From the IMG/VR virus record IMGVR_UViG_3300015371_000112, positions 1-33,333 of that record: DNA of 33,333 nt; one strand, given 5' to 3'. Source of the DNA: a virus. Of this stretch, positions 1-20,863 are shown in pieces. The position numbers and the translations under genes were made by a program. The notes beneath the pieces are model-generated. The model saw nothing but the letters and a program-made list of their open reading frames with translations, made no database searches and had not been told where the DNA came from. Position 1 is the stretch's first letter, and each line of letters opens with the position of its first letter.

Positions 1-28
1 GATTTACTAAGAAAGAAATAATTCAAAA

Positions 29-148
29 ATGAATTTCCCTTTTGATTTTCTTGATTCGGATTTACAGAGAAAACATATATGGGAAATCAGGGAAAAAAGT
101 CGTTTTTTCAACAAAAGAAAAAACAAAGAATTTTTGAAAATCTCTTGA
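29..148 (+). CDS. possible small ORF, 39 aa, hypothetical
   Basis: An ATG-started frame encodes 39 residues, rich in Lys, Phe and Arg (begins MNFPFDF, ends KEFLKIS). No clear Shine-Dalgarno sequence precedes it. It contains a perfect AT-rich hairpin (GAAAAAA, loop GTCG, TTTTTTC at 92-109), and its stop overlaps the -35 box of the next promoter. It could be a real early peptide or chance reading of the leader. No family is recognised. Confidence 0.25.
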   Translation: MNFPFDFLDSDLQRKHIWEIREKSRFFNKRKNKEFLKIS

Positions 149-174
149 CAGGCGGCGCCGTTAGGCAATATATT
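145..174 (+). promoter_or_regulatory. sigma70-like promoter
   Basis: A consensus TTGACA (145-150) is followed 18 bases later by TATATT (169-174). This would start transcription about 30 bases before the ribosome-binding site of the gene at 213. It is the best promoter-like sequence in the window and suggests the left block is read by host RNA polymerase. Confidence 0.65.
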
Positions 175-212
175 TGGTCCGGATCGTAAAATTCTAGTAT
201 AGGAGATTGAAT

Positions 213-464
213 ATGAGTTTAAAGATGCGAGCAGAGGAAGAGGGAATGGAAGATAGGGTTTTTCATCACATTCAATTGAAGGCGGGGGTTATCCGAGAGG
301 AAAACGGAATCGTGACGCTTGAGATTTCCGGCCGGAACATGAAAGCCCAGGATCATGAGGTGTTGACGCGATTGTTTCCGCACCTTGGCGAACTGGCCTA
401 TGAACTTTTGGTCAAAGAGGCCGTCCTGAATTCTTTCAAACTCAAAAGTGAGGGTCAAATATGA
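213..464 (+). CDS. hypothetical protein, 83 aa
   Basis: Unrecognised 83-residue acidic protein. I chose ATG 213 because AGGAG (201-205) sits seven bases upstream; a TTG at 207 is too close to that site. The product is soluble-looking, with a charged N-terminus, a central stretch that looks like beta strand (GIVTLEISG), and a helix-forming C-terminus (ELAYELLVKEAVLNSFKL). It is the first gene after a strong promoter and overlaps the next gene by ATGA, so the two are probably co-translated. Base composition is more GC-rich than the main operon. The function is unknown; a small early host-takeover protein is possible but not shown. Confidence 0.6.
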   Translation: MSLKMRAEEEGMEDRVFHHIQLKAGVIREENGIVTLEISGRNMKAQDHEVLTRLFPHLGELAYELLVKEAVLNSFKLKSEGQI

Positions 465-634
465 ATTTCAAGATTTCACTTGGTGATCGAGTTATCGCAA
501 TGTTCGAAGAGGAATTTGATGCTCGCGATTACTTCGGGACTCTTTGCTGGAAAGCCGGACAGCAAGAAGGTTTTCAAGGTAAGATTACGCTGGCTCGCAT
601 TACGTCCGAGCCAATTGACAATAAGATTTTTTGA
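461..634 (+). CDS. hypothetical protein, 57 aa
   Basis: Unrecognised small protein that begins inside the stop of the preceding gene (ATGA overlap), which implies translational coupling. The 57 residues begin MNFKISLGDRVIAMFEEEFD and end with EPIDNKIF. There is no signal peptide, membrane segment or metal-binding motif. The 'GDRVIAMFEEEFDARDYFGT' stretch could form a small beta barrel, but that is only an impression. It ends just before a second promoter-like sequence at 644, so it closes a two-gene unit. Confidence 0.5.
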   Translation: MNFKISLGDRVIAMFEEEFDARDYFGTLCWKAGQQEGFQGKITLARITSEPIDNKIF

Positions 635-643
635 AAATAGTTG

Positions 644-673
644 TTGACAACCCCTTGCGGGTTATGAAAAGAT
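644..673 (+). promoter_or_regulatory. possible sigma70-like promoter
   Basis: TTGACA (644-649) matches the -35 consensus. The best -10 candidate at standard spacing is the weak AAAGAT (668-673). Transcription would start near 680, giving a leader of roughly 100 bases before the start codon at 780. The -10 box is the weak point. Confidence 0.35.
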
Positions 674-779
674 GTTAACCATGATGATCGTATTACAAAT
701 GATGTTGCTCTGGTTCGTGGGAATGGTTTCCGCGTGCCAATCTAATAATGATCGTCAAATTTCAATTGGGAGATTTCAC

Positions 780-1244
780 ATGTCTACAGTTCAACCGTCT
801 GCTACTGCTGGTCCTGGTCGTGGTCGTCAATGGTCCGCAAAGTTCAATCGCACCGTAAAGTATTTTGACGGTAACTTTGATTTGCAAGAGGCATCAGTTT
901 CCGGCGAGATTAAACCGGCGACAGATTTGCAAGGGGCTGTTAGTGGATTAGGACTAACGCCGGATGAAATTGTGCTCGCGTTGAACAACGCCGCCAAAGC
1001 TAAGTTGATTACAGAGAAAACCGAAGCGGCAACCGGCGCCGACGCAATTCCGGAAGCAGTTCTAAATAAGTTTGTCGAACCGTACTTTGCTGTTCCACGT
1101 ATCGAAGCGATCACCGGCAAGAACGACTCGGAAACAAAGTCGCTCCGCATGGCCGAGATTATCAAGAAAATCAAAGGCGACGAAGATATGAAAGCGGCGC
1201 TTATGAACAAAGTGCGCGAGGCAAAGGAAAACGAACAAGAGTAA
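780..1244 (+). CDS. hypothetical protein, 154 aa
   Basis: Unrecognised protein. I chose ATG 780 because GGGAG (768-772) lies seven bases upstream and because the promoter at 644-673 would start transcription inside any longer version. The frame stays open to an ATG at 672, whose extra 36 residues resemble a lipoprotein signal (see findings). The product starts with a low-complexity Ser/Thr/Gly stretch, then aromatic and charged residues (QWSAKFNRTVKYFDGNFDL). It ends in a helical, Lys/Glu-rich tail (MAEIIKKIKGDEDMKAALMNKVREAKE). Composition is GC-rich relative to the later operon. It stands alone between a promoter and two hairpins. Function unknown. Confidence 0.6.
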   Translation: MSTVQPSATAGPGRGRQWSAKFNRTVKYFDGNFDLQEASVSGEIKPATDLQGAVSGLGLTPDEIVLALNNAAKAKLITEKTEAATGADAIPEAVLNKFVEPYFAVPRIEAITGKNDSETKSLRMAEIIKKIKGDEDMKAALMNKVREAKENEQE

Positions 1245-1247
1245 CAA

Positions 1248-1270
1248 AAGGGGCTCCGGCCCCTTGGCTT
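1248..1270 (+). terminator. hairpin, possible terminator
   Basis: AAGGGGC (1248-1254), loop TCCG and GCCCCTT (1259-1265) form a perfect 7-bp, GC-rich hairpin immediately after the gene ending at 1244. The following tract (GGCTTCATCCTT) is only moderately T-rich, so it may act with the second hairpin downstream. Confidence 0.5.
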
Positions 1271-1297
1271 CATCCTTAACTTAATAACTCGAAACGC

Positions 1298-1333
1298 AAG
1301 CCGGATCTCTAGTAGGTTCGGCTTTTTCTTTTT
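1298..1333 (+). terminator. Rho-independent terminator
   Basis: AAGCCGGA pairs with TTCGGCTT (one G-T pair) around a loop of about 11 bases, and is followed directly by a T-rich run (TTTTCTTTTTC). This is the classic intrinsic-terminator layout and separates the left gene block from the main operon. Confidence 0.7.
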
Positions 1334-1400
1334 CTGGTGGGATACCCCTCCAGCTTGACTTGATTTTTTATTTGAATTTCGGCCGAAGGCTCACCTAATA

Positions 1401-1432
1401 CATAAAATGTAAAACTCATAAAATGTAAAACT
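1401..1432. repeat. tandem 16-bp direct repeat
   Basis: CATAAAATGTAAAACT occurs twice, back to back (1401-1416 and 1417-1432), in the gene-free stretch between the left block and the main operon. It could be a protein-binding site or replication slippage; nothing else identifies it. Confidence 0.7.
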
Positions 1433-1465
1433 TTAAAAACAAAGAATTTGACTAAAATTTCTAGA

Positions 1466-1615
1466 GCGTGCTCGGAAACCTAACACGCCGGAGGCGTAAA
1501 TAGGCGACCGCGAGCTAAAAGACGCGCTATGAGGCAGCTAGGCCCCAAAAATAGCCTATTGACTTGGGCTTCGCTCAAGCGTAAGCTTGGACCTGGCCGG
1601 TTCGCCCGTTAGCCA
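1466..1615 (+). ncRNA. candidate structured RNA, unassigned
   Basis: This gene-free stretch is much richer in GC than its surroundings and folds on paper into several helices. GCGTG (1466-1470) pairs with CACGC (1484-1488), competing with ACGCC/GGCGT (1485-1497). AATAGGC (1499-1505) pairs with GCCTATT (1554-1560). CTTGGGC pairs with GCTCAAG (1563-1579), competing with CAAGC-GTAA-GCTTG (1576-1589), which has a GNRA tetraloop. TGGCCGG pairs with CCG-TTA-GCCA (1594-1615). It lies just upstream of the short gene at 1630 and the Tad1-like gene. It does not look like a tRNA, tmRNA or any riboswitch I recognise. The alternative pairings are what a switching leader or a compact ncRNA would show. No covariation could be examined. 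Confidence 0.4.
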
Positions 1616-1629
1616 AAAGTGTAATTAAA

Positions 1630-1761
1630 ATGGAAAACGAAATTCAACCAGAAAAAGAAGAAAAATCAGAATACGAGAAAGCCATAGCGAAACTCAAAGG
1701 TTCTCCACTGGCGAAATTTGACTTAAACAAAGAATTGCCTGCGGCAATAGAAGAAACTTAA
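1630..1761 (+). CDS. hypothetical peptide, 43 aa
   Basis: A 43-residue, highly charged peptide (begins MENEIQPEKEEKSEYEKAIA, ends LNKELPAAIEET). It starts 15 bases after the structured stretch and ends one base before the next gene's ATG (stop 1759-1761, ATG 1763), so it is probably co-translated with the Tad1-like gene. No Shine-Dalgarno sequence is evident, so it may act as a leader peptide or start from a structured 5' end. The helical, Glu/Lys-rich sequence matches no family I recognise. Confidence 0.45.
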   Translation: MENEIQPEKEEKSEYEKAIAKLKGSPLAKFDLNKELPAAIEET

Positions 1762-1762
1762 T

Positions 1763-2173
1763 ATGAGAACTTTAACTGACCACATTGTACCTGGAGACTC
1801 TTCAAATCATCAACTTGAAATTCAAGTTACAGATGAACCCGGCGCCGGTGGAGCAAATCACAGATACGAAATAACCGGTTTCGATACAAAAACTAATCCT
1901 TCTGCTAAAAGTTCTGATTTAGATTCTGCGAATTTCCCATATTTATTAATTCTTTTCCAAAATGACCCCATCAAAGAAGCCAGCGTAAACGGAATTACCC
2001 AAGAAGCATTACTCGCAATTGTAATTGATAGATTAAGAAGTTTCCAATCTGGTCCTTACGCCTGTCAAGAAAACGCAGATGCTCTTATTTGTTGTGAATC
2101 TGCACTACTTCAATTGCAAGAAAGAACTAAAAAGCGTTTAGCACGCGGCGTCGAAGGAACACTTTCTAAGTAG
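1763..2173 (+). CDS. Tad1-like anti-defence sponge protein
   Basis: The 136-residue product matches the conserved C-terminal pattern I know from Tad1 anti-Thoeris proteins. A beta region (HRYEITGF, ILFQNDPIKEASVNG) is followed by two helices with LLAIVIDRL, FQSGPYACQEN and RTKKRLARGVEGT. F94, N104, R121 and R125 have the same spacing as F82, N92, R109 and R113, which I recall as ligand-pocket residues of clostridial Tad1. Tad1 multimers sequester the cyclic ADP-ribose signal made by Thoeris TIR proteins, and some members also bind CBASS cyclic nucleotides. Length (Tad1 is about 140 aa) fits. The usual Leu-Glu after the ENxxAL motif is replaced by Cys-Cys-Glu. It lies at the front of the long operon, before the small terminase candidate, with weak ribosome binding. 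Family assignment is fairly strong; the actual ligand is inferred. Confidence 0.8.
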   Translation: MRTLTDHIVPGDSSNHQLEIQVTDEPGAGGANHRYEITGFDTKTNPSAKSSDLDSANFPYLLILFQNDPIKEASVNGITQEALLAIVIDRLRSFQSGPYACQENADALICCESALLQLQERTKKRLARGVEGTLSK

Positions 2174-2180
2174 GCTTGAA

Positions 2181-2537
2181 ATGTCAACCACGTTTGATGC
2201 GAAGCAACACGAAATAGACCGGGCCTTAGCTTCGCTAGGCTTGAAAGGAAGTCCTCCTAATAAAGAAGTCCCTGCGCAGCAGGAAATCCTACCAAAAATC
2301 AATGAAATTTTCGAAAGCGCCGGGGCGGGAATCGAAGAGGCCGCCATTACAATAGCTTCAGCTATGGCTGATTCTACTAACCCTCAATTCCAATTAAAAG
2401 CTGCCGAACTCGCTTTACGTGTTCATGGAATCTTTAAAGATGATAAATCTCCTAAATCACCAGTTGTAAACATAAATATAGTTAGTGCTGGCGGAGAACA
2501 AAAAACATTACTTAATTTAGTTTTACCTACACCATAA
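2181..2537 (+). CDS. putative terminase small subunit
   Basis: The 118-residue protein has a middle helix pair and a tail pattern (QFQLKAAELALRVHGIFKDD, then VVNINIVSAGGEQ and a C-terminal LLNLVLPTP) resembling small terminase subunits of short-tailed phages, which recognise phage DNA and stimulate the large terminase. No clear helix-turn-helix is visible in the N-terminal 40 residues. The large terminase lies 4.5 kb downstream on the same strand, separated by lysis and small genes, an unusual but not unknown distance. It follows the Tad1-like gene by seven bases. The assignment rests on pattern similarity only. Confidence 0.5.
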   Translation: MSTTFDAKQHEIDRALASLGLKGSPPNKEVPAQQEILPKINEIFESAGAGIEEAAITIASAMADSTNPQFQLKAAELALRVHGIFKDDKSPKSPVVNINIVSAGGEQKTLLNLVLPTP

Positions 2538-2611
2538 TTTAAATAACCTTTCCCGATGCTGAAGTTGGGAATTTAACAGAGCTTGATATTTAGCTTTGTT
2601 TACTGGCAATC

Positions 2612-2917
2612 TTGGCCCTTTTTATCGACGGCTTCAAATTACCCATCGACAGATGGCAATTGGACGAAATCCTTGATAAAAGGCTAGGTCCAAACTATAA
2701 TACCAGATTTTCTGAATTCTTTGTTGTAGCCCGCGGTCCAGAATATCACCAAACCAAAGTAGAGTGTAAGTACGGCCAAATCCCAGTCTTCTTTGTTCCA
2801 AATTGTCCCACCAATAAAATTTTTGTCCTGAACAGAAAAAGATTTCCCTATCCCAGTAAGAAATATTTCTCTGGCAAGTCGTCTAATTATGACCAGAATG
2901 GAGATTTAATACAATAA
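2612..2917 (+). CDS. hypothetical protein, 101 aa, non-ATG start
   Basis: Unrecognised basic protein, rich in aromatic residues and prolines (FFVVARGPEYHQTKVECKYG; VFFVPNCPTNKIFVLNRKRF). No ATG exists near its beginning. The frame opens after TAG at 2591, so TTG 2612 or CTG 2603 must serve as start, and neither has a clear ribosome-binding site. It ends in TAATG, sharing a base with the next gene. The 74 bases before it hold only a weak hairpin (TTCCC 2550-2554 with GGGAA 2567-2571). The lack of a normal start may mean poor translation or an upstream sequence change. Function unknown. Confidence 0.5.
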   Translation: MALFIDGFKLPIDRWQLDEILDKRLGPNYNTRFSEFFVVARGPEYHQTKVECKYGQIPVFFVPNCPTNKIFVLNRKRFPYPSKKYFSGKSSNYDQNGDLIQ

Positions 2918-3138
2918 TGGGTGATGATACTGAAATTATGTTTGTTCTAGGAAAGTTGAAATTGCGTGAATGTTGCAAGCCAACTTGTCAACAAGGAACT
3001 CTCGAAATAGAAATAACTGATTATACAAAAGACATGAGAGTTCATTTAGAACTTAAAGAAGTACACGATTTAATTACATTTCTTCATTCTTGGGAAAATC
3101 AGAAAAGAGAAGAACTCTTATTAAAGGAGCCATTATGA
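2917..3138 (+). CDS. hypothetical protein, 73 aa
   Basis: Small protein coupled to its upstream neighbour by TAATG and to its downstream neighbour by ATGA. It carries a Cys cluster (LRECCKPTCQQG, residues 16-27), a beta-like middle (TLEIEITDYTKDMRVHLEL) and a helical end (VHDLITFLHSWENQKREELL). The Cys cluster could bind metal, but only three Cys are present. No family is recognised. The tight coupling on both sides supports it as a real gene. Confidence 0.55.
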   Translation: MGDDTEIMFVLGKLKLRECCKPTCQQGTLEIEITDYTKDMRVHLELKEVHDLITFLHSWENQKREELLLKEPL

Positions 3139-3662
3139 CCGCAAGGGCGCCAAAATCAATAACCAATTTTAGGTTAAATCTTGATAAAGTAGATAAACTT
3201 GAAAGAGGGACTCCTGACTTAACAGATTTGGTCCCTTACTTTGACGACGCCGCGGGCTATGCGAAAGCCACAACACCAGAAGGTCTATCAACAGGAACAC
3301 AAACTCCAACTGGAATTACTACTACTCCATACACTTTATCAACAGCACAAAGTAGTCAAGTATTTTATAATAACTCTGGCGCTCTTCTTGAGTTCCTTTT
3401 ACCAGCGGCAGCTATTGGCTTAGTTTATTCCTTTTTTGTAAATGATTATAATGGAACGAAAATAACTGCAAATGGAACTGATTGCATAAGAATAGCTCCA
3501 ACTGGCCGTGGTGCATCAGGCGGATACATTGAATCTACTACTGTGGGATCATTTATTACTTTAAGAGGTATTGCAGCCTCTTTCTTAGTTGGTGGTACAC
3601 CTACAGCCGCGACAGAATGGGAAGCTACTGTTGTAACTGGAAACTGGGACATGGATGTCTAA
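3135..3662 (+). CDS. putative virion structural protein (beta-rich, fibre-like)
   Basis: I chose ATG 3135 because AAAGGAG (3123-3129) precedes it and it overlaps the previous stop by ATGA; this gives 175 residues. The C-terminal 100 residues are beta-rich, with Gly, Ala, Thr and Asn repeats (LLPAAAIGLVYSFFVND; GGYIESTTVGSFITLRGI; EWEATVVTGNW). This pattern is common in C-terminal domains of phage fibres and decoration proteins. The N-terminal part (LNLDKVDKLERGTPDLTDLVPYF) looks like an attachment segment. The product at 16211 has a similar overall layout. It is separated from the main head genes by about 4 kb, so its place in the particle is uncertain. Confidence 0.5.
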   Translation: MTARAPKSITNFRLNLDKVDKLERGTPDLTDLVPYFDDAAGYAKATTPEGLSTGTQTPTGITTTPYTLSTAQSSQVFYNNSGALLEFLLPAAAIGLVYSFFVNDYNGTKITANGTDCIRIAPTGRGASGGYIESTTVGSFITLRGIAASFLVGGTPTAATEWEATVVTGNWDMDV

Positions 3663-3682
3663 AAATACTTTAAAGGAAATTT

Positions 3683-4006
3683 ATGTCAACTAAACCTCCA
3701 TCTACACTTGAAACTCCAGTCATATCTGAAGAAGACAAAGAGAAAATCGCCGCTAGACGGAATGGAACAGGAGTAGCTCCTTTTGTTCCCGGAATTCGAT
3801 TCTATGAATTACATTTTAGAGCAGGAAATCGTAAACCGATGATGAAAGTTTTTATGTTTAAGGGAGAACTTCCTGATGCAATAAAACGAAGTCAAGCTCA
3901 CTGTACTAAGATGGATTATCGTTTCTGCGGTTGTTATCCCTTCGTTGTGGACCTTGACATTCAAGAGAAATACCGCGAAGATAACTTAAACTTCGATCAA
4001 TATTAG
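3683..4006 (+). CDS. hypothetical protein, 107 aa
   Basis: Unrecognised protein with a good ribosome-binding site (AAAGGAAA before ATG 3683). The N-terminus is disordered-looking and Pro/Thr-rich. A folded part follows with FYELHFRAG, MMKVFMFKGELPDAIKRSQA and a Cys-containing segment (HCTKMDYRFCGCYPFVVDLD). Three Cys and one His are close together near residues 73-84, a possible metal site. It sits in the run of small genes between the terminase candidate and the lysis genes. Confidence 0.55.
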   Translation: MSTKPPSTLETPVISEEDKEKIAARRNGTGVAPFVPGIRFYELHFRAGNRKPMMKVFMFKGELPDAIKRSQAHCTKMDYRFCGCYPFVVDLDIQEKYREDNLNFDQY

Positions 4007-4019
4007 GTTAATTTCTTCT

Positions 4020-4208
4020 ATGAAAGTTATTGCTATTCCTAACCTTCAATGTCCAACTTGTCTTGGAACTTTAGTTTGGCTAGTAACTGAAGGAAGTAAA
4101 GTTAAAATAACTCATCCTATTCCTTGGCGACCTTATCACGAAAAGAAATGTGAAAATGAAGGAAAAATTACCGAAGTTCCCATTACAACATTCTATAAAG
4201 AAATATGA
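4020..4208 (+). CDS. small CxxC protein, paralogue A
   Basis: The 62-residue product has a CPTC knuckle (residues 11-14) and a second His/Cys group (H-E-K-K-C near residues 45-49), the layout of a small zinc-binding fold. It aligns over nearly its full length with the next gene's product: LQC-x-x-CL near the start, a turn with Gly-x-KV, His and Cys at matching positions, and an F(Y/F)xEI ending. It lacks a good Shine-Dalgarno sequence. The pair is probably a tandem duplication. Function unknown; DNA or protein contact is a guess. Confidence 0.55.
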   Translation: MKVIAIPNLQCPTCLGTLVWLVTEGSKVKITHPIPWRPYHEKKCENEGKITEVPITTFYKEI

Positions 4209-4239
4209 CTGCGTAGCAGCAATTATAAGAAACTTTAAT

Positions 4240-4434
4240 GTGCGATTCCTTGAACTTCCTGCTTTACAATGTACGAAATGCTTAAATTTCTATTATCATG
4301 TAGTTTCACCAGATGGTTTGAAAGTCTTGTTCTACCATTGCCATAATAATCCCGAAGGCATCGAAGTTGATTGTGAAGATCGAGACAAGATGTACGAATT
4401 TAGTATAAATGAATTTTTTAGAGAGATTAGTTAA
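4240..4434 (+). CDS. small CxxC protein, paralogue B (GTG start)
   Basis: I chose GTG 4240 because it gives MRFLELPALQC, matching paralogue A's MKVIAIPNLQC residue for residue from the start. The frame is open upstream to GTG 4150 and ATG 4156, but that would overlap the preceding gene by about 60 bases and break the alignment. The 64-residue product has CTKC (11-14), a Tyr/His/Cys group (FYHCHNN) and a Cys (VDC) farther on, consistent with zinc binding, and ends EFFREIS. Ribosome binding is weak (AAGAAA). It lies five bases before the endolysin gene. Confidence 0.5.
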   Translation: MRFLELPALQCTKCLNFYYHVVSPDGLKVLFYHCHNNPEGIEVDCEDRDKMYEFSINEFFREIS

Positions 4435-4439
4435 AAGTT

Positions 4440-4841
4440 ATGCTTTCTCTTTCTTGGAAAGATTTTAAGTACTTTAAGGCGGAAGAATTTGATTCTCCTG
4501 ATCTTCCAGGTTCGGGTGAAACTGAAATGAATCTAGAATTTGTAGCAAAACTCGAACAGTTACGTGAAATAACGAAACGTCCTTTCTTTATTACCTCTGG
4601 TTACAGAACTTTAAGTCACCATAAACAAATCTATTATAAATCAGCGACGGTTCCCGATTCTGCCCATCTAAGAGGTCTAGCTGCTGATATAAGATGTCTT
4701 GATAGTCAATTACGTTTTCTTCTAATTGAAGGAGCAATCAAGCTTGGATTTAAGCGAATAGAAACCGCTCCACATCATGTACATTTAGACATGGATGAAT
4801 CCTTACCACAAAACGTTCTGCTTCATTTAACAGATAACTAA
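4440..4841 (+). CDS. endolysin, peptidase M15 (D-Ala-D-Ala carboxypeptidase-like)
   Basis: The 133-residue protein has the peptidase M15A signature: SGYRT (53-57), SAHLRGLAADI (74-84; H76 and D83 as zinc ligands) and HHVHLDMD (112-119; H115 the likely third ligand). It would cut peptide cross-links in the host cell wall at the end of infection. The length equals a bare catalytic domain, with no binding domain or signal peptide, so release would depend on a holin. Two small hydrophobic-protein genes follow within 300 bases, forming a lysis cassette that sits unusually before the packaging genes. Translation initiation lacks a clear Shine-Dalgarno sequence. Confidence 0.85.
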   Translation: MLSLSWKDFKYFKAEEFDSPDLPGSGETEMNLEFVAKLEQLREITKRPFFITSGYRTLSHHKQIYYKSATVPDSAHLRGLAADIRCLDSQLRFLLIEGAIKLGFKRIETAPHHVHLDMDESLPQNVLLHLTDN

Positions 4842-4842
4842 A

Positions 4843-5079
4843 ATGAACATTCTACGAGTTTTGAGTCTACTTCAATTCTTGCCCACGGCGATAGCTTTAA
4901 TTGAAAACAAAGATATGACTGGCGAACAAAAGAAAAAAGCAGTCATGGAAGAAGCTAAAACTGTAGCCGCAGTCTCGATTGGTCCTTCAAACAACGATGG
5001 TCTTCTTCATGATGGTTTATCTAAAACAATAGATGGAATCGTTGACATTCTAAATGCCACAACGTGGCATAAACATTAA
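4843..5079 (+). CDS. lysis-cassette-associated small protein, 78 aa
   Basis: It begins one base after the endolysin stop. The N-terminus is moderately hydrophobic (ILRVLSLLQFLPTAIALIE, residues 3-21), followed by a Lys/Glu/Ala-rich amphipathic helix and a short C-terminal helix (IDGIVDILNAT). The layout resembles small proteins found beside endolysins in many phages, but I cannot say it is a holin because only one marginal membrane segment is visible. A role in lysis is inferred from position. Confidence 0.55.
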   Translation: MNILRVLSLLQFLPTAIALIENKDMTGEQKKKAVMEEAKTVAAVSIGPSNNDGLLHDGLSKTIDGIVDILNATTWHKH

Positions 5080-5135
5080 CAATTTAACCAAAAATTCTGG
5101 GATCTGAAACAACGGCCAGGGAGGGCCAGAGGCCA

Positions 5136-5309
5136 ATGATGTTTACTTCAATCGACAAAGCACTTGTAGCATTGATTATGGCTGGAGTTTTTATAGTTAA
5201 TCAATATACAGGTAAACATATAAATGTAAGTGAACAAACATTAAATTCTATTTTCGTTATACTTACTCCAATTCTTGTTTATTTAATTCCTAATAAACCA
5301 AAGGTTTAA
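5136..5309 (+). CDS. putative holin, two membrane segments
   Basis: A 57-residue protein missed by length cut-offs. ATG 5136 (or 5139) follows AGAGG. Hydrophobic segments are at residues 9-22 (ALVALIMAGVFIVN) and 38-51 (SIFVILTPILVYLI), joined by a short polar loop, and the C-terminus is Lys-rich. Together with the start 'FTSIDKALVALI' this matches small phage holins that permeabilise the inner membrane for the endolysin encoded 300 bases upstream. The 56 bases before it contain repeated GGCC motifs (5114-5134) that may pair near the ribosome-binding site. Confidence 0.6.
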   Translation: MMFTSIDKALVALIMAGVFIVNQYTGKHINVSEQTLNSIFVILTPILVYLIPNKPKV

Positions 5310-5310
5310 G

Positions 5311-5670
5311 ATGCCTGATTCTGCTTTGGGTTGTGATTGGATAATTGAACCAAAGACTGATGAACAAAGGACTTGTGTAATGAGCTGGATGATTTACTCT
5401 ACTGGAAATCTAGCTGGAATTCTAAAAAAACTTGAGAGCTCAAACATCAAAGATGCAAATGGTGATGAAAGTAACCCATATCAAATCCAACAATACATGC
5501 AAGTCAAATCATTTTTACATCAACAACTTGAACTAATGAGACAAACTTTTGAGTTTTTTAATAAAGGAGAAAAAATCTATTTCGATCTTGAAGCCCGTGG
5601 ACATATTGAAGTAGGAAAGAGATTTAATTTAACCATCAAGATAGATAGGACGTTCTTAGATGTCGGCTAA
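5311..5670 (+). CDS. hypothetical protein, 119 aa
   Basis: Unrecognised soluble protein with a good ribosome-binding site (AAAGG). It is mostly helical (IYSTGNLAGILKKLESSN; YQIQQYMQVKSFLHQQLELM) with a beta-like C-terminus (IYFDLEARGHIEVGKRFNL). It starts one base after the holin-like gene and overlaps the zinc-ribbon gene that begins at 5660. There is no catalytic motif. Its place between lysis and packaging genes gives no strong hint of role. Confidence 0.55.
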   Translation: MPDSALGCDWIIEPKTDEQRTCVMSWMIYSTGNLAGILKKLESSNIKDANGDESNPYQIQQYMQVKSFLHQQLELMRQTFEFFNKGEKIYFDLEARGHIEVGKRFNLTIKIDRTFLDVG

Positions 5671-5939: not shown

Positions 5940-7004
5940 ATGCCTGAAGATATAAAGAAAACTATTATCAGTAATTTTATACAGCCGCCAGGTTCGCCGG
6001 ATCTTCAAAATTATCCTGCGGGCAGATTTCCAAAAGAACCAACCACATCATTTCAGCAAGCCATTTCTCAAGGAAAAGATATTCTTACCAGAGCATATCT
6101 GAGTATGGTTGGAAGTTCACCAGAACAAGTCCAAGCAAACAATCAAGCCGGCCAAGCCTACAAGAACATAATTCCTGCGCCCGCGGGGATAGCTTATCAT
6201 GGTTCTCCTGCTATATTTGAAAACTTTAATCCTGAATTTATTGGAAGTGGTGAAGGCGCACAAGCATTTGGTCATGGACTATATTTTGCTGAAAATCCAA
6301 AAATAGCAGAAAACTATAGACGAAATTTAACTGGTGGATCTGGCGCTCTTAATTTTACTAAAGAAGGAAAAACTCTAGATCCTAATGTTGATAATTTAGA
6401 ACTTTTAAGGGAGTATTTTAAACCAGGAAATGTTATTAAAAGTTATAATGGCCAAGATAGAGTAGTAGCATTTCATGAAACACCAGAACAACCTTGGCAA
6501 TGGAGTGTCTCTGTTAGAGATATAAATCCAAAGACAGGAAAAGAAGGTCCACTTAGGGTCCATTCTACAACACCAAAAAGTCAAAATATAGAAGAAGTTT
6601 TAACTAGTCAAGGATGGAAAGCTAATAAGCCAGGTGCTACTTATACAGTAGATATTCCAGATGAGCATGTAGCTAAAATGATAGATTGGGATAAACCTTT
6701 AATAAAACAAAATCCAGAGGTATTAAAAGCTATTGACAAATCTGGTATTTTAGCTGAATATGAAAAATATAACCCTGATTTTAAAAAAGTAGTGACTGGT
6801 GAAGGTTTATACCGGCTTATTTCGACTGGAGGGACGCCGAAAGCAGGAAATATAGCAAATAAGGCAATGGCATCAGAGTATCTTAACTCAATAGGAATTC
6901 CTGGTATTAAATACTTTGATGCCTTTTCTCGTAAAGTTGGAGAGGGCAGTAGAAATTTAGTAGTTTTTGATCCTTCCATTATTAAAATGCTCAAAAGAGA
7001 CTAA
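5940..7004 (+). CDS. putative ADP-ribosyltransferase-like protein
   Basis: The 354-residue protein carries a C-terminal domain seen in many phage and prophage proteins that resembles the ADP-ribosyltransferase (ART) fold. YHGSP (86-90) would supply the NAD-binding His. GSGEGAQAFGHGLYFAENP (102-120) and Y126 fit the central strand-helix region. YTVDIPD (235-241), SIGIPGIKYFD (317-327) and RNLVVFD (338-344) complete the fold; E335 is a possible acidic catalytic residue. Residues 1-80 are a low-complexity, Pro/Gln-rich lead that could be a virion-association tail. ART enzymes transfer ADP-ribose from NAD to host proteins or RNA, as T4 Alt and ModA do. Its place immediately before the large terminase suggests late expression and perhaps packaging into the head. 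Activity is inferred. Confidence 0.6.
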   Translation: MPEDIKKTIISNFIQPPGSPDLQNYPAGRFPKEPTTSFQQAISQGKDILTRAYLSMVGSSPEQVQANNQAGQAYKNIIPAPAGIAYHGSPAIFENFNPEFIGSGEGAQAFGHGLYFAENPKIAENYRRNLTGGSGALNFTKEGKTLDPNVDNLELLREYFKPGNVIKSYNGQDRVVAFHETPEQPWQWSVSVRDINPKTGKEGPLRVHSTTPKSQNIEEVLTSQGWKANKPGATYTVDIPDEHVAKMIDWDKPLIKQNPEVLKAIDKSGILAEYEKYNPDFKKVVTGEGLYRLISTGGTPKAGNIANKAMASEYLNSIGIPGIKYFDAFSRKVGEGSRNLVVFDPSIIKMLKRD

Positions 7005-8546
7005 ATGAATCTAGATATTACATTTAGAAATCCAGAACAAGAAATTCATTACTTCTCTCGCGCCCGCGATAATAGATTTGGCGGAGGATTTGGTAATGGA
7101 AAAACCTATTCCGCGTGCCAACGTGCTCTTACGCATTTAATGTTGTTTCCTGGTTACAGAGTCGCATTTTGTAGACAAGTCTACAAGAATCTTAGATCTT
7201 CAACTATGCAGACGTTTTTTAAAGTCTGTCCAGCTGATTTTATTCTGCGTCATGATGAACAATTCGGTATTACAATCTTTATTAACGGTTCGATTGCCTT
7301 TTGGCTTCATCTTGATAATATGGATGAAGCGACAGCCAAAGGGTTTGAAATAAATGCACTTATAATAGATCAGGCTGAAGAAGTTGAAGAATCTATCTAC
7401 TTATTAATGGATGCTCGCGTTGGTCGTTGGGATAAAGTAACCATTCCACAATATCTAATCGACGCCGCTTTAGCGGCAGGGACGCCGTGGCCCAAACATC
7501 CAAAATGGGGAAACTATTTATCTCATAACTATGTAGATATTCTCGACAATCCTTCAGATGATGACTTCCATTGGACCACTCGTTTCTTTGATGACGATTC
7601 CATAGAAAGGTTGCCGACTTGTTTTAATGTCGTCCGTAAAACAGATGACGACATGAACGACCCTAAAACTATTGCTAAGATATTAAATCGCGATAAAGAA
7701 TGGGTTGATAAATATTATTACGGAAAGAAAGTCCGTTCTGGTGCTATGATACACTCCGTCCTACCGGACTCCGTGATAAAGCCAAGTGACTTAAATCGTA
7801 TTATTTTTGAAGAACTTATAAAGAAGATTCGTACCAAGGCCGGTTTATACCGGACTTTAGATCATGGCGATTCCGCTCCAACAGCAGTCGGATTTGGTGC
7901 GGCGTTGAATGGAATTCATATAATGTTCGGTGAATACTATCTTCCAAATGAAATCATTTCATATCATCGCCAAAATATTCATGATATTTCAATTGAACTC
8001 GCAGGTTCGCAGAATCTAGAAAACTTTCTTGATTATGCCGATCCTTCCATCTTTAAAATGTCTCCTCAAAAAGGGGGAGAAAGATGGACTGTAGCCCAAG
8101 AATATTCTGATACTGAAGCTATAACTTCTCCGCCATTTTATTGGAGTAGAGCAGATAACAATGAAATGGCAACGCGAAATAGAATAAGTGAACTTTTAAG
8201 ACCATCTTCAAAGTTCATTCATCCCATAACGGGAGTTTCTCCTGCGCCTGGCCTTTACTTTATTCTTTCTGATACTCAGATTTGGCCCCACGGTGTTCAT
8301 AATATCCTGCTTGAAACTCAAAAGCAACGTAAAGCTCTTCTTGGTGAAATAAACGGCAAAAAGTATTATTCTGACGACAGAGCCGAAGGTGTAGCTGATC
8401 ATGGTTATGATACTTTAAGATACTATGTAGCCGCGCATGGCGCGGGCTTTGTAGAACCAACTAAGAAAGCGCCTAGAAACAGTTTCGCTACATTTAATAG
8501 AATATGGAAAATGCGCAAACAATATATGGGAGAGTTACATGGCTAG
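7005..8546 (+). CDS. terminase large subunit
   Basis: The 513-residue ATP-driven DNA-packaging motor and headful nuclease. The ATPase part has a Walker A-type GGGFGNGKT (26-34) and Walker B LIIDQAEE (119-126). The C-terminal RNase H-like nuclease has acidic residues in LDHGDSAPTA (285-294), E310 in IMFGEYY, and D343/D346 in LDYADPS. Length is typical. It starts directly after the ART-like gene's stop and overlaps the portal gene by eight bases. It works with the portal and a small terminase, possibly the protein at 2181. Confidence 0.9.
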   Translation: MNLDITFRNPEQEIHYFSRARDNRFGGGFGNGKTYSACQRALTHLMLFPGYRVAFCRQVYKNLRSSTMQTFFKVCPADFILRHDEQFGITIFINGSIAFWLHLDNMDEATAKGFEINALIIDQAEEVEESIYLLMDARVGRWDKVTIPQYLIDAALAAGTPWPKHPKWGNYLSHNYVDILDNPSDDDFHWTTRFFDDDSIERLPTCFNVVRKTDDDMNDPKTIAKILNRDKEWVDKYYYGKKVRSGAMIHSVLPDSVIKPSDLNRIIFEELIKKIRTKAGLYRTLDHGDSAPTAVGFGAALNGIHIMFGEYYLPNEIISYHRQNIHDISIELAGSQNLENFLDYADPSIFKMSPQKGGERWTVAQEYSDTEAITSPPFYWSRADNNEMATRNRISELLRPSSKFIHPITGVSPAPGLYFILSDTQIWPHGVHNILLETQKQRKALLGEINGKKYYSDDRAEGVADHGYDTLRYYVAAHGAGFVEPTKKAPRNSFATFNRIWKMRKQYMGELHG

Positions 8547-10419
8547 AACACGAAGTAATTCTTATAGTCTAGCCAAAGAAAGTCCCTGGTCCCTTCGCAT
8601 AAGAAATGCCCAGCGTTATTATGAAACTTGGTCTAATGAATATAAATGTAATGAGCTAGAACAATATTATAAGGGAAAGCAACACCGTGGGCGAATAGAT
8701 TTAATCACTGGTCGCAGGCCATATACTTTAAATATGGTTTACGCTACGATTAGACGTAAAATAGCTAATATAATCTACACTTATCCTGAATATGCTATTG
8801 ACCCAAGACCAGGAATGATGGACTGGAATCAAGATTTTGCTATAAGAAGCGCGTCTACAAAACAAGATGCTTTAAATACAATAGTTCAAAATCCCAATTT
8901 TGGCTTTGTTCGTACAACAAAAAAAGCCGCATTAGACGCTTTCTTCAGGTTTGCTGTAGTTGAAGTTGGATATTCAGCAAATATAATGAATCCTTTATGG
9001 GATGAAAAAGATGCAGAAAAGAATGAGCAAATCACCGAAGGTGAACGAATTTATGCTAAATGGATTCCAGCGCGCCGTTTTCGCGTTTCCATGTCTGATG
9101 ATGTGGAATTGAGAAACTGTAACTGGTGCGGCTATTATGAATGGATTCCACAGGAAACATTACAAAACACCAAAGGAATAGATTTCCCTAAAACATATGC
9201 ACAGCAATATTATTCTGTGGACTTTGCTGATCCTACCGCTTACTTTAACACTGTTGAAGGAAATGCTGCTGATAAAGCTTCAATCTCAAAAGAAGTCTTA
9301 GATGCGGCGCGTAAGGGAACTCTTTGTAAAGTCTGGCATATAGCAGATAATATCGAAGATAAACGACTCCTTCTTTTAGACGGAAACTTTGAAACTCTAT
9401 TTGAAAAGCCAATGGAGCGTATCCCTTTTAAAACCCACAGGGTTGATGAAGTTTTAGAAGGTTGGTATCCTGTGCCACCTGTGTGGCATTGGTTGAGTTC
9501 TCAAGATGAAATAAATGAATCCAGAGAACAAATGCGACGTTATCGTCGTAGATTTAATAGAAAGTTTGAATATGATAAAGGTTCTTTAGATCCTGATGAA
9601 GTAGACAAATTTACATTAGATGAAGACGGAACTTTAATTCAAGTTAAAAAGAGACCGCCTGATGGCGGACCTGCGATACGAAGTATTCAGAATCCTGAAA
9701 TTGGACCAACCATTGCAGAAGGACTTATAGCATCAAAAGATGATTGGAATATTGTAACTGGAAATGCTATTGCAAGAGGTCGTCCAAGTGATCGTCAGAC
9801 TGCAACTGCAACTAAAAAACAAGCATCAGATGAAATTATAGTTGAGAATGCGGAGCAGGTAGACTTTAGTATTTTCATGTGCGAGATTGGACGTGAAATA
9901 TTACTTCAAGCTGGTGAAAACTTGAGTCAGGGAATGTGGATAAAGATGACAGCAGACCCGGCGGAAAATAATGATATTCTTGAAGAAATTCAACAAAATG
10001 TTCCTGTCTTTAGATATATCAAAAATCAAGATATTGCAGATGGATATGATTTTGATGTTAAACTAAGTATCAATAATGCTTCTCCAGATCAAATGCAAGC
10101 TCAGGAAGTTGCATTTACGAAATTCCTAGCTCTTGTAACTCAATTCCCTATGGTAGCATTATCACCAACACTTATAAGAGAAACTGCTTATAGAGTAAAT
10201 TATAGAAATGAAAAAGTGATTAGACAAATGCAGCAAATGGCCCTATTACAGATGGCCGAAAAAGCCAGTGCCGCTGGTCAATCTTTACCTATGGCAGCAA
10301 TGAATGGTAATGGAAACGGCGCTGGTGTAAATTCTGGAAATATGGCTAAAGGAATTGCACAGCAAGGACAACCAAACTCGGTAGACGAAATTCAAAGTCA
10401 GTTAATGAATCAGGGGTAA
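8539..10419 (+). CDS. portal protein
   Basis: The 626-residue protein follows the terminase with an 8-base overlap and precedes the scaffold and capsid genes, the standard portal position. Sequence features fit: an N-terminal YKGKQHRG region, a helical core with a basic stretch (REQMRRYRRRFNRKF), the stem-like VKKRPPDGG region, and a Gln/Met/Gly-rich C-terminus. The portal forms the twelve-subunit ring at the head vertex through which DNA enters and leaves, and it docks the terminase. Length fits short-tailed phages. The C-terminal 60 residues are low complexity. Confidence 0.85.
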   Translation: MARTRSNSYSLAKESPWSLRIRNAQRYYETWSNEYKCNELEQYYKGKQHRGRIDLITGRRPYTLNMVYATIRRKIANIIYTYPEYAIDPRPGMMDWNQDFAIRSASTKQDALNTIVQNPNFGFVRTTKKAALDAFFRFAVVEVGYSANIMNPLWDEKDAEKNEQITEGERIYAKWIPARRFRVSMSDDVELRNCNWCGYYEWIPQETLQNTKGIDFPKTYAQQYYSVDFADPTAYFNTVEGNAADKASISKEVLDAARKGTLCKVWHIADNIEDKRLLLLDGNFETLFEKPMERIPFKTHRVDEVLEGWYPVPPVWHWLSSQDEINESREQMRRYRRRFNRKFEYDKGSLDPDEVDKFTLDEDGTLIQVKKRPPDGGPAIRSIQNPEIGPTIAEGLIASKDDWNIVTGNAIARGRPSDRQTATATKKQASDEIIVENAEQVDFSIFMCEIGREILLQAGENLSQGMWIKMTADPAENNDILEEIQQNVPVFRYIKNQDIADGYDFDVKLSINNASPDQMQAQEVAFTKFLALVTQFPMVALSPTLIRETAYRVNYRNEKVIRQMQQMALLQMAEKASAAGQSLPMAAMNGNGNGAGVNSGNMAKGIAQQGQPNSVDEIQSQLMNQG

Positions 10420-11538: not shown

Positions 11539-12750
11539 ATGACGAGAAAAGAAGCGGCGTTTGGCCTACTTCGATTCTTCACCTTTTCAGCCCTTCAACT
11601 ATATTCTCTCTATCTAATATTGCATGGTTCTTGGTCTCATGGAATTTTAATCGCCACGATCACTTTTGGTGATACGGCAGCTCCTTCAAATATTGCAATC
11701 TATTTTGATTCTCTTTTCACACAAAGTCTTTCTAACTATCGCGATTCCATGATTGATAATATCGGCGCGGCCAATGCTTTCCTGCATAAACTTCTTGCAA
11801 GTGATATGTATGAAAGTACAGACGGTGGAACATACATTCAAGAACAACTTATGTATGCTCTTTCACCTATGGAAAGTTACGATGGATATGATGAACTTTC
11901 TACGGCAACCACAGATGGAATCACGGAAGCCCAATTTCAATGGTGTCAATTAGCTACGCCCGTTTCCTATTCAATGAAGGAAATCATTCAAAATAGGAGA
12001 CGGATTACTGATCTTGTGAAGACCAAGATGACTCAAATGAACATGGGTATTCAAGAAGGATGGGCCACCCATTTCATGCAGGGATCAGGAAACGGCGCGC
12101 TTGAAACGGCAAAGGTGAATGCCATAAATGGTTCATCTTCAGTAAATCCTCTTCCTTTGTTGGTCAAATTTGACCCTACAACAGCTACTTCTATTGGAAA
12201 TATCGCCCAGAATACCTATACTTGGTGGAGAAATCGTACCAAGACAGCTTCCATTACTAGTTCTAGCAATGGGGCCGCGTTCATGGCTGAATGGATGAAT
12301 ATTTTCAATACTTGTTCTTTAGGAACAGGAGGTCCACCAGATATTTGTCTTTGTGACCAAATTACATTTGAATTATGTTCTTTGGCCTTGTGGGACAAAT
12401 ATCGTCAAACTTCTTCAGATCAGAATTTTCCCTTCACCAATATTCGTCTACCTTTTGGAGATGGTAAATCTTTAGTTGTTTTGGATGACAAAGTTCCTGA
12501 CGTTTATACTGGAGTTACATCTACTGCAACATATGGAACGATGTATCTTCTGAACTCCAAGTTCTTCAAAATCCGTCCAATTGAAGGTCGTGATTTTGAA
12601 ATGTTGACTGATGAAAATGGTAAAACCTTTGCCAAGCCAGTAAACCAAGATGCTCGAATTGGTCATTGCGCTTGGATGGGACAAACCACCATCAACCAAA
12701 GAAGAAAACAGGGGGTCTGGGGCAAGATACCTAGAGCTTTAACCCTGTAA
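11539..12750 (+). CDS. major capsid protein
   Basis: The 403-residue protein is assigned by position (after portal and scaffold, before a decoration-like gene) and by its sequence. 'AIYFDSLFTQSLSNYRDSMI' (residues 53-72) and a long E-loop-type middle rich in Gly, Ser and Thr are capsid-like, as are the C-terminal strands (KSLVVLDDKVPDVY; MYLLNSKFFKIRPIEGRDFEM). ATG 11539 is supported by GAGGAAAG upstream. The start gives an unusual hydrophobic N-terminus (residues 7-30); the only in-frame alternative near it, TTG 11620, lacks a ribosome-binding site. It is followed by a large inverted repeat. Confidence 0.8.
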   Translation: MTRKEAAFGLLRFFTFSALQLYSLYLILHGSWSHGILIATITFGDTAAPSNIAIYFDSLFTQSLSNYRDSMIDNIGAANAFLHKLLASDMYESTDGGTYIQEQLMYALSPMESYDGYDELSTATTDGITEAQFQWCQLATPVSYSMKEIIQNRRRITDLVKTKMTQMNMGIQEGWATHFMQGSGNGALETAKVNAINGSSSVNPLPLLVKFDPTTATSIGNIAQNTYTWWRNRTKTASITSSSNGAAFMAEWMNIFNTCSLGTGGPPDICLCDQITFELCSLALWDKYRQTSSDQNFPFTNIRLPFGDGKSLVVLDDKVPDVYTGVTSTATYGTMYLLNSKFFKIRPIEGRDFEMLTDENGKTFAKPVNQDARIGHCAWMGQTTINQRRKQGVWGKIPRALTL

Positions 12751-18752: not shown

Positions 18753-20863
18753 TGGCGGCAGACAACCAACACCAGATTATATTTAAAGATTTTAGTGCAG
18801 GATGGATTCCGTCTGACGACGCAATTAACGGTCGTAGGACCGGCTTGCTTAAAATGGATGGAGTTACTTTAGATGATAACGGATCTTTGATACTCCAACA
18901 AGGAACTAAGAAAGATCAAGGCCCATATGCTGCTAACGCGCATTCTTTATTTTATAAATTGATGTGTGGTGAACGGCGCGCTTATCTGGGTCTTGAAGAT
19001 GGATCAGTATGGCGTAACTCAACAAATCTAGTAGCCGCTGGTGCGGGATCAACTGATAGAATAGCCTTCGGAGTTTATGGACCATATGTTCTTATCTTCT
19101 CGGGCGCACAACGACTGAAAGATTCTTGTGATGATGGAATTCTTGATCTTGGTTTAACTCCGCCGGATATAGCTCCAATCATTAATCCATTTTCAGTTAC
19201 TCCTATACTTGGAAATCCAGCTGGTACAGGCGGAATAGCCGGTACTTTTGCCAGCTTTGCTCAAATGTATGGAACTGTAGCTGGAACTGCAACTGAACTT
19301 GATATTTCTACTACAAATATAGGCCAAAATTATAGATCGGCGGCGGCGGTAAATGGTACAAAACAAGGATATACTTCAATAGATTTGCATGGAACAGAAG
19401 ATGATACTTTTACTTTTAAACTTAAAGTTGATGATGTTTCTAAACTAAGTAATGTTCCTATCACTGGTGCTACTACAGGAGTAATTTCACTTATATTTCT
19501 TTTAAAACCTGCACAAACTGCTCTTGATGATCTTGGACCATCTTATGTAGTTCAATTTTCTCAAGGAGACTTGTTAGCACAAGGACTAGTAGATAATCAA
19601 TGGACAACTATATCATGTAAGCGTAGCGATTTTGTACGTTCTAATGTAGATAAAGATCGTCCTTATGGATGGCAACAAGTTACAGGATGTGTGATTTTTT
19701 GTGCTAGTGATAGTTTTGGCGCGGCGGCGAACTTTGCCTTTAAAGATTTTATTCTTTATCCTAATGTTACTCCTACAGATCAGGACGTTCTTGGTCCTTT
19801 AAATGGAACTTATGAATGGGTTCAAGTCAATGTATTTAATAACGGCAGCTATACGGCTATGTCCAAGCCTAGTCCGATTACGGATGACGTTGATCTAGCT
19901 AATGGGTATGTAGAAGTTATACCTATTGATCCTACCATAACAGAGCCGCAGGCAAATGAAGTTTGGATATATAGACGTGGAGGAACCTTACAATTCTTTT
20001 ATCGTGTACTTAGGATTTTAATGGATGATCTTGGTGATCGTATTGATAATATGTCTGATGTTGATGCACTTGCGTTAGGTGAGGTACTTAATACAAATTT
20101 ACTTAGTTCAAACTCTACAGATTTACCTGAAGATATTATTGATATGGTTGGTCCAATATTTGGTCGGATGGTTTATTTTTCATCTACACAAATCTATTTT
20201 AGTGCTATAAATAATCCAGATGCTTATGATCCTAGAAACACGATGAAACTTGCTTCTGATGACACAGAGACGTTTCAATGGGCAAGAAAGGTTTCTGAAA
20301 ATATAATAATGATAGGAACGCTAAAAGACGTTTACATTATTACAGGAACGTTCACTTCGTTCCCTGATGGGGCATTAGATGTTTACTTGCGTAACTTGGG
20401 GGTTAATAAGCCCCCGATTTCAAGGTTTGCGACTGTATATAACGGGAGTGTAATTTACTTTGCTTCTCAAGAATGGATTATTTTATCTCCGACAGGTCAG
20501 TATCAAAGTTTGGTTTCTCCTAATACAGATGTTTTATATACTGGACAGACTAGATATGGATATGGTGGCGTACCATCTTATTTAGATACTCCAGATATAA
20601 GCTACTCGTGCGTCGTCGCAAAAAACAAATTATGGGTCGTAGTTCCTACGATAACAGATTACGTGACTCCTCCTGGGGCAATCTCTACTTGGACTTATAG
20701 AATGGAAGTATTTGACTTTGGTAGAAAATATTGGAGACCAGTTCCATTTAGTCCATTTCTATTAGCGATAGCTGATGATGAAGCTCTTTATGGTTTCTTT
20801 AATGAAAACAAAAGTAGCATGTATATGGATGATCCATTTACTAAGTTATTAAATATAACATAA
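18752..20863 (+). CDS. putative tail nozzle / tubular protein
   Basis: The 703-residue protein starts with 'IIFKDFSAGWIPSDDAINGR' (residues 9-28), a start typical of nozzle and tubular B-type proteins of short-tailed phages, and continues with large beta-propeller-like stretches. WVQVNVFNNGSYTAMSKPSP and EVWIYRRGGTLQFFYRV suggest repeated beta units. A later DTETFQWARKV segment and FASQEWIILSPTGQYQ fit the same pattern. It would form the distal tail tube through which DNA leaves. It overlaps its upstream neighbour by TAATG and shares a base with the next gene. Length is within the usual range. Confidence 0.65.
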   Translation: MAADNQHQIIFKDFSAGWIPSDDAINGRRTGLLKMDGVTLDDNGSLILQQGTKKDQGPYAANAHSLFYKLMCGERRAYLGLEDGSVWRNSTNLVAAGAGSTDRIAFGVYGPYVLIFSGAQRLKDSCDDGILDLGLTPPDIAPIINPFSVTPILGNPAGTGGIAGTFASFAQMYGTVAGTATELDISTTNIGQNYRSAAAVNGTKQGYTSIDLHGTEDDTFTFKLKVDDVSKLSNVPITGATTGVISLIFLLKPAQTALDDLGPSYVVQFSQGDLLAQGLVDNQWTTISCKRSDFVRSNVDKDRPYGWQQVTGCVIFCASDSFGAAANFAFKDFILYPNVTPTDQDVLGPLNGTYEWVQVNVFNNGSYTAMSKPSPITDDVDLANGYVEVIPIDPTITEPQANEVWIYRRGGTLQFFYRVLRILMDDLGDRIDNMSDVDALALGEVLNTNLLSSNSTDLPEDIIDMVGPIFGRMVYFSSTQIYFSAINNPDAYDPRNTMKLASDDTETFQWARKVSENIIMIGTLKDVYIITGTFTSFPDGALDVYLRNLGVNKPPISRFATVYNGSVIYFASQEWIILSPTGQYQSLVSPNTDVLYTGQTRYGYGGVPSYLDTPDISYSCVVAKNKLWVVVPTITDYVTPPGAISTWTYRMEVFDFGRKYWRPVPFSPFLLAIADDEALYGFFNENKSSMYMDDPFTKLLNIT

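Follow-up and report, generated by a model that had tools for sequence, protein, structure and literature searches.

A Tad1-family protein, probably an immune-signal sponge, encoded near the head of a phage packaging operon

Does a small open reading frame (ORF) wedged in just before the packaging genes of an uncultivated phage encode a counter-defense protein of the Tad1 family, and if so, how would such a protein serve the phage? The window, by which we mean the whole stretch of DNA that was analyzed, is a virus record of 33,333 bases. Its genes form a run on the + strand from 1630 to 27856 with few gaps, and the beginning of this run and its packaging and capsid genes are laid out as follows.

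1298-1324, + strand: hairpin resembling an intrinsic terminator, with 11 pairs and a T-rich tail, which would close the upstream unit (consensus match only)
1630-1761, + strand: 43-aa ORF, probable counterpart of small ORFs running into the start of the terS-like gene in related contigs L113, L115 and L116 (common SPL motif; short, and weak taken alone)
1763-2173, + strand: tad1 homologue, 136 aa (phmmer and hmmsearch against the PDB, AlphaFold2 model, Foldseek)
2181-2537, + strand: terminase-small-subunit-like (terS-like) gene (position and conserved neighborhood; no family match)
7005-8546, + strand: large terminase subunit, TerL (phrog_2, 1.2e-13; synteny with relatives)
8539-10419, + strand: portal (position and synteny)
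11539-12750, + strand: major capsid protein (matches annotated major capsid proteins; 65-68% identity to L111-L117)

The tad1 gene starts 1 nt after the end of the 43-aa ORF and is followed after 7 nt by the terS-like gene. Its placement at the head of the operon in the initial annotation was nearly right: tad1 does lie downstream of the terminator-like hairpin, but the 43-aa ORF comes first in the run and tad1 second. The hairpin falls within a segment of about 380 nt (1248-1629) that holds no evident gene and extends to the 43-aa ORF, and an Rfam search of positions 1-5400 returned no match. Elsewhere in the window, a 354-aa ORF just upstream of TerL (5940-7004, + strand) contains an ADP-ribosyltransferase-like segment (PF18760 ART-PolyVal, 29.3 bits for a cut-off of 31.2) and may be a host-modifying enzyme, either injected or late. 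An 853-aa protein (29070-31631, - strand) has a family A DNA polymerase at its C-terminus and, at its N-terminus, a weak match to the uracil-DNA-glycosylase superfamily that fails the cut-off (E 0.0026).

The tad1 ORF is real and its product belongs to the Tad1 family. The ORF runs from an ATG at 1763 to a TAG ending at 2173; its frame has a stop at 1748-1750, is open only from 1751, and offers no alternative start codon farther upstream. When the protein was compared with all PDB chains using phmmer, the best match was gp184 of phage phiKZ (8y6v, 1.7e-18; 39% identical over 114 residues), followed by CmTad1 (8kbb, 4.3e-15) and CbTad1 (7uav and others, about 5e-13, up to 6e-13), and everything besides these three had an E-value above 0.2. 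A profile built from 44 sequences matched only Tad1 entries and gp184 in the PDB (7.6e-28 to 1.7e-24). Local alignment scores against four experimentally studied Tad1 proteins lay 28-36 standard deviations above those of shuffled sequence. Among the PHROGs, the matches were phrog_2428 (3.9e-29), 23843 and 22140, all of "unknown function", and searches of Pfam and NCBIfam gave no significant model for the protein. Automatic annotation would therefore read hypothetical, as had been anticipated.

The predicted structure points to the same family. An AlphaFold2 monomer computed from the 44-sequence alignment (pLDDT 90.2, pTM 0.83) places strands at residues 2-4, 19-22, 34-38 and 61-65 and helices at 80-96 and 102-128; the model thus has the Tad1 layout, an antiparallel sheet at the N-terminus and then two long helices at the C-terminus. 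All 20 Foldseek matches in the PDB with E <= 0.001 were Tad1 chains, and the next match of any kind had an E-value of 1.1. The best was 7uaw, CbTad1 with 1''-2' gcADPR (E 1.3e-9; TM 0.75 by query length and 0.82 by target length), and identity to the solved Tad1 proteins was about 31-33% over the whole fold. The model superposes on a Tad1 structure with a global rmsd of about 5 Å, to which a long predicted loop and the hinge between sheet and helices may contribute. The other sponges Acb2, Tad2 and Acb4 had no entry among the PDB sequence matches or the significant Foldseek matches. Profile and structure searches therefore bear out the identification of Tad1 that had been made from the raw sequence, and neither pointed to an unrelated family.

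Within the gene, the beta-rich N-terminal part, the two long helices and a C-terminal tail, GVEGT, follow one another, and the following codons bear on the ligand.

1964-1966, + strand: codon of Asp68, the rarest departure from a conserved residue (92 of 94 homologues have Gly)
2042-2074, + strand: codons for FQSGPYACQEN (F94-N104), from the end of helix 1 to the start of helix 2 (alignment with CbTad1, conservation)
2090-2095, + strand: codons of Cys110-Cys111, within helix 2 (AlphaFold2 model, alignment of homologues)
2123-2161, + strand: codons for RTKKRLARGVEGT (R121-T133), covering the conserved C-terminal tail and two candidate pocket arginines, R121 and R125 (conservation)

The Tad1 motif read in the initial annotation, and the spacings of 10, 17 and 4 residues between F94, N104, R121 and R125, hold up: in the phmmer alignment these residues face F, N, R and R of CbTad1. 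Their counterparts F82, N92, R109 and R113 were named there as pocket residues of clostridial Tad1, and we treat the four as candidate ligand contacts; this numbering is the PDB chain number minus one, on the assumption of an extra residue at the chain start. We assessed conservation in 94 homologues: non-redundant proteins of viral and genome contigs, together with members from named phages and the PDB. All 94 have R121, 93 have R125, and F94 and N104 are kept in 91 each, while Q66, G77 and G132 are each found in 94 of 94. F94 and N104 sit at the opposite end of one helix hairpin from R121 and R125, and the 17 residues from N104 to R121 span about 25 Å of a single helix, so the four candidate residues can meet only across two protomers. 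This agrees with the published Tad1 pocket, in which loops and the C-terminal tail of one protomer come together with the two helices of the other (PMC12043709).

The substitutions that set the protein apart are partly other than those first pointed out. A Cys-Cys pair was said to replace Leu-Glu between the helices; C110 and C111 in fact lie inside helix 2 (102-128), and Glu112 is retained (Glu in 73/94). Cys110 stands where 80/94 homologues have Lys or His. Position 111 is Ile, Leu or Val in 77/94 homologues; 9/94, among them the nearest relative, L010, have Cys there. Judged from the alignment, the protein departs more strikingly at two other positions: Asp68, within the FQNGP loop, where all but two homologues have Gly, and Gln117, where 76/94 have Trp; these two may alter the pocket.

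Placed beside the characterized proteins, the window protein can first be compared with CbTad1, from a Clostridium botulinum prophage (PDB 7uav, 7uaw, 8smd, 8kbe, 8kbf). The two have in common the fold, the four candidate pocket residues with their spacings and the C-terminal G-T motif, but they are only about 32% identical overall, the inter-strand loop of the window protein (residues about 40-60) is longer, its tail reads V-E instead of V-L, and it differs at Asp68, Cys110 and Gln117. CmTad1 (PDB 8kbb, 8kbc, 8kbd) is 44% identical over 75 residues of the helical half (E 4e-15), whereas its N-terminal half is too diverged for alignment by sequence only. SBSphiJ7 Tad1 (OM982674), a Bacillus phage Tad1 shown to counter Thoeris, is 47% identical over 72 residues, again in the helical half. 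It forms with CmTad1 a separate, strongly supported branch of the tree, and separation from that branch is all that the tree shows for the window protein. The neighbors of SBSphiJ7 tad1 are not packaging genes, with a recombinase and a sigma factor found in the related phages P59 and CM1. The proteins gp184 of phiKZ and gp280 of 201phi2-1 are 39-40% identical to the window protein over most of its length and share the loop T/S-G-F/Y-x-x-x-T-N-P-x-A; unlike it, they are jumbo-phage proteins with N-terminal extensions and are present in virions, gp184 being injected. Proteins of Agrobacterium phage OLIVR5 and Rhizobium phage IC12, annotated as "ABC transporter ATPase" or hypothetical, are closer, aligning almost end to end at 57-58% identity and without an extension. 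The genome of IC12 is 150 kb, and the neighbors of its homologue are SbcC/SbcD-like and replication genes.

Is tad1 a fixed part of the operon in which it sits? A search for relatives with the terS-like protein as query found none, and they were obtained via the capsid protein. Seven contigs (L111-L117) share with the window a capsid protein at 65-68% identity and the order of the morphogenesis genes. A search for Tad1 in these seven, one of them 43 kb long, gave no match, while a positive control contig did, and nine more distant TerL relatives gave none either; these 16 contigs are incomplete or possibly so. In L113, L115 and L116 there is no tad1, and the small ORF with the SPL motif extends 17-47 nt into the terS-like gene. 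In the window the 43-aa ORF and the terS-like gene are 419 nt apart and tad1 lies between them, which argues that tad1 is accessory. The neighborhood has been rearranged as well: the counterpart of 2612-2917 is upstream of the small ORF in the relatives and downstream of terS in the window. From this gene order, the best reading of tad1 is that it was acquired and is optional within a conserved operon head. It is encoded by a virus and has an accessory distribution, and both its absence from the 16 contigs and the overlap of its flanking genes in relatives are as expected of an acquired counter-defense gene.

Homologues of the protein are found well beyond this group. Close relatives (about 50-71% identity) are widespread in phage contigs and Pseudomonadota prophages, with those at 57-71% found in other phages. 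Over 82 Tad1 loci, with all ORFs taken into the neighbor counts, a terminase, portal or capsid gene lies within 9 kb of Tad1 in 37 and within 3 kb in 25, and 67 of 68 such neighbors are on the same strand as Tad1. By a rough estimate for a 45 kb genome the first two of these numbers are close to those of uniform placement, and we dropped the idea of a general enrichment of Tad1 beside morphogenesis genes. In 7 of the 82 loci Tad1 sits between TerL, portal or capsid genes. In five loci (L052, L090, L042, L062 and L075) Tad1 lies within the morphogenesis operon, flanked by a P22-like portal gene and the capsid gene, and in L052 and L090 the portal is 1.0 kb upstream and the capsid gene 165 nt downstream of tad1. 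Homologues in Bacillus phages P59 (L108) and CM1 (L109), in Lactococcus phage 1706 (gp71) and in 201phi2-1 (gp280) are annotated as structural or noted from mass spectrometry, and these lineages are partly far from phiKZ. The 84,756-bp contig G023, which holds L030, carries two Tad1 copies (19696-20103 and 82840-83103), one of them complete and the other similar mainly in the helical half. In gp131 of the jumbo Burkholderia phage FLC9 (L008:4374-5390), a cyclophilin-type prolyl isomerase (PF00160, E 2.5e-44) is fused to a C-terminal Tad1 domain, which could be a virion-loading or folding arrangement.

Taken together, the gene very probably encodes a Tad1-family immune-signal sponge, a reading carried by the sequence homology, predicted fold, conserved candidate residues and accessory position computed here; oligomer, ligand, protection and timing we infer from characterized family members. 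By analogy with these, the protein would assemble as dimers into a hexamer, with inter-protomer pockets that would bind cyclic ADP-ribose isomers made by TIR proteins; CBASS cyclic oligonucleotides may be bound at the same or separate sites. Bound signals would be held undegraded, and the Thoeris or CBASS effector would stay off. Standing so early in the gene run that goes on to terminase, portal and capsid, tad1 is probably expressed at the same time as these genes. A phage major head protein has been reported to trigger Thoeris (PMC12043709); in that case the sponge and the trigger of Thoeris would be produced at about the same time. The initial annotation took the gene to imply a Thoeris-carrying host or host relative. 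This does not follow: CBASS nucleotides are ligands of Tad1 proteins too (PMC12043709; PMC13282480), and the window itself holds nothing that identifies a host. In six genomes with Tad1 homologues we found a ThsB_TIR domain in two and SMODS in two, in a sample of few genomes where a domain match does not amount to a system. Counted against the sponge reading are the substitutions Asp68 and Gln117, the low identity to the solved Tad1 proteins, the certain or possible incompleteness of the contigs without tad1 and, finally, the annotation of some homologues as structural proteins.

This last point would be met if the protein were a minor virion or head-assembly protein that has the Tad1 fold and no immune function, and a gp184 chain is indeed present in PDB entry 8y6v. 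We consider this highly improbable. Relatives with the same capsid module show no copy of the gene, which is probably dispensable for the particle; conservation is among the highest at the candidate ligand residues; and the virion protein gp184 is itself reported to be a sponge (PMC13282480), specifically a Tad1 that blocks both CBASS and Thoeris (PMC13282480, PMC12043709). It is also conceivable that ligand preference has shifted through Asp68, Cys110 and Gln117, for example to CBASS nucleotides only. The three substitutions fall at well conserved or typed positions and the spectrum of cyclic dinucleotides varies among Tad1 homologues (PMC12043709), but all four candidate gcADPR-pocket residues and the C-terminal tail are intact, and we regard such a shift as doubtful.

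A further question is whether the sponge travels in the virion, is injected with the DNA and acts before the signal accumulates. The phiKZ protein gp184 was validated as injected (PMC10449902), a review states that phiKZ injects Tad1 (PMC13282480), and gp280 of 201phi2-1 (L110) is noted as "identified using mass spectrometry". Lactococcus phage 1706 gp71 (L106) is annotated as structural and is possibly a virion protein, even though its neighbors are recombination and lysis genes. The seven loci with Tad1 between TerL, portal or capsid genes, and its position near the head of the packaging operon here, fit the same idea. The phiKZ and 201phi2-1 proteins, 230 and 199 aa long, however, have N-terminal extensions that the 136-aa window protein lacks, and the 25 of 82 loci with morphogenesis genes within 3 kb are what random placement would roughly give. 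We therefore think virion carriage unlikely in this phage. The more specific proposal that a stand-alone Tad1 without extension is made with the packaging genes, loaded into the particles of a small phage to be injected ready-made, with Asp68 and Cys110 perhaps favoring a signal other than those bound by CbTad1, strikes us as quite unlikely.

The immune-signal sponge is thus the reading that we retain. The Tad1 family is already known, widely distributed and structurally solved, and the window protein is an additional member. It extends Tad1 to a small group of uncultivated phages, where tad1 is an optional gene inserted close to the start of the packaging operon. It also means that a large family, whose members now go by hypothetical, "ABC transporter ATPase" or "structural protein", can be renamed Tad1. 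Virion carriage of Tad1 may be commoner than stated, and the homologues collected here raise a testable question: are Tad1 proteins outside the jumbo phages carried in virions?
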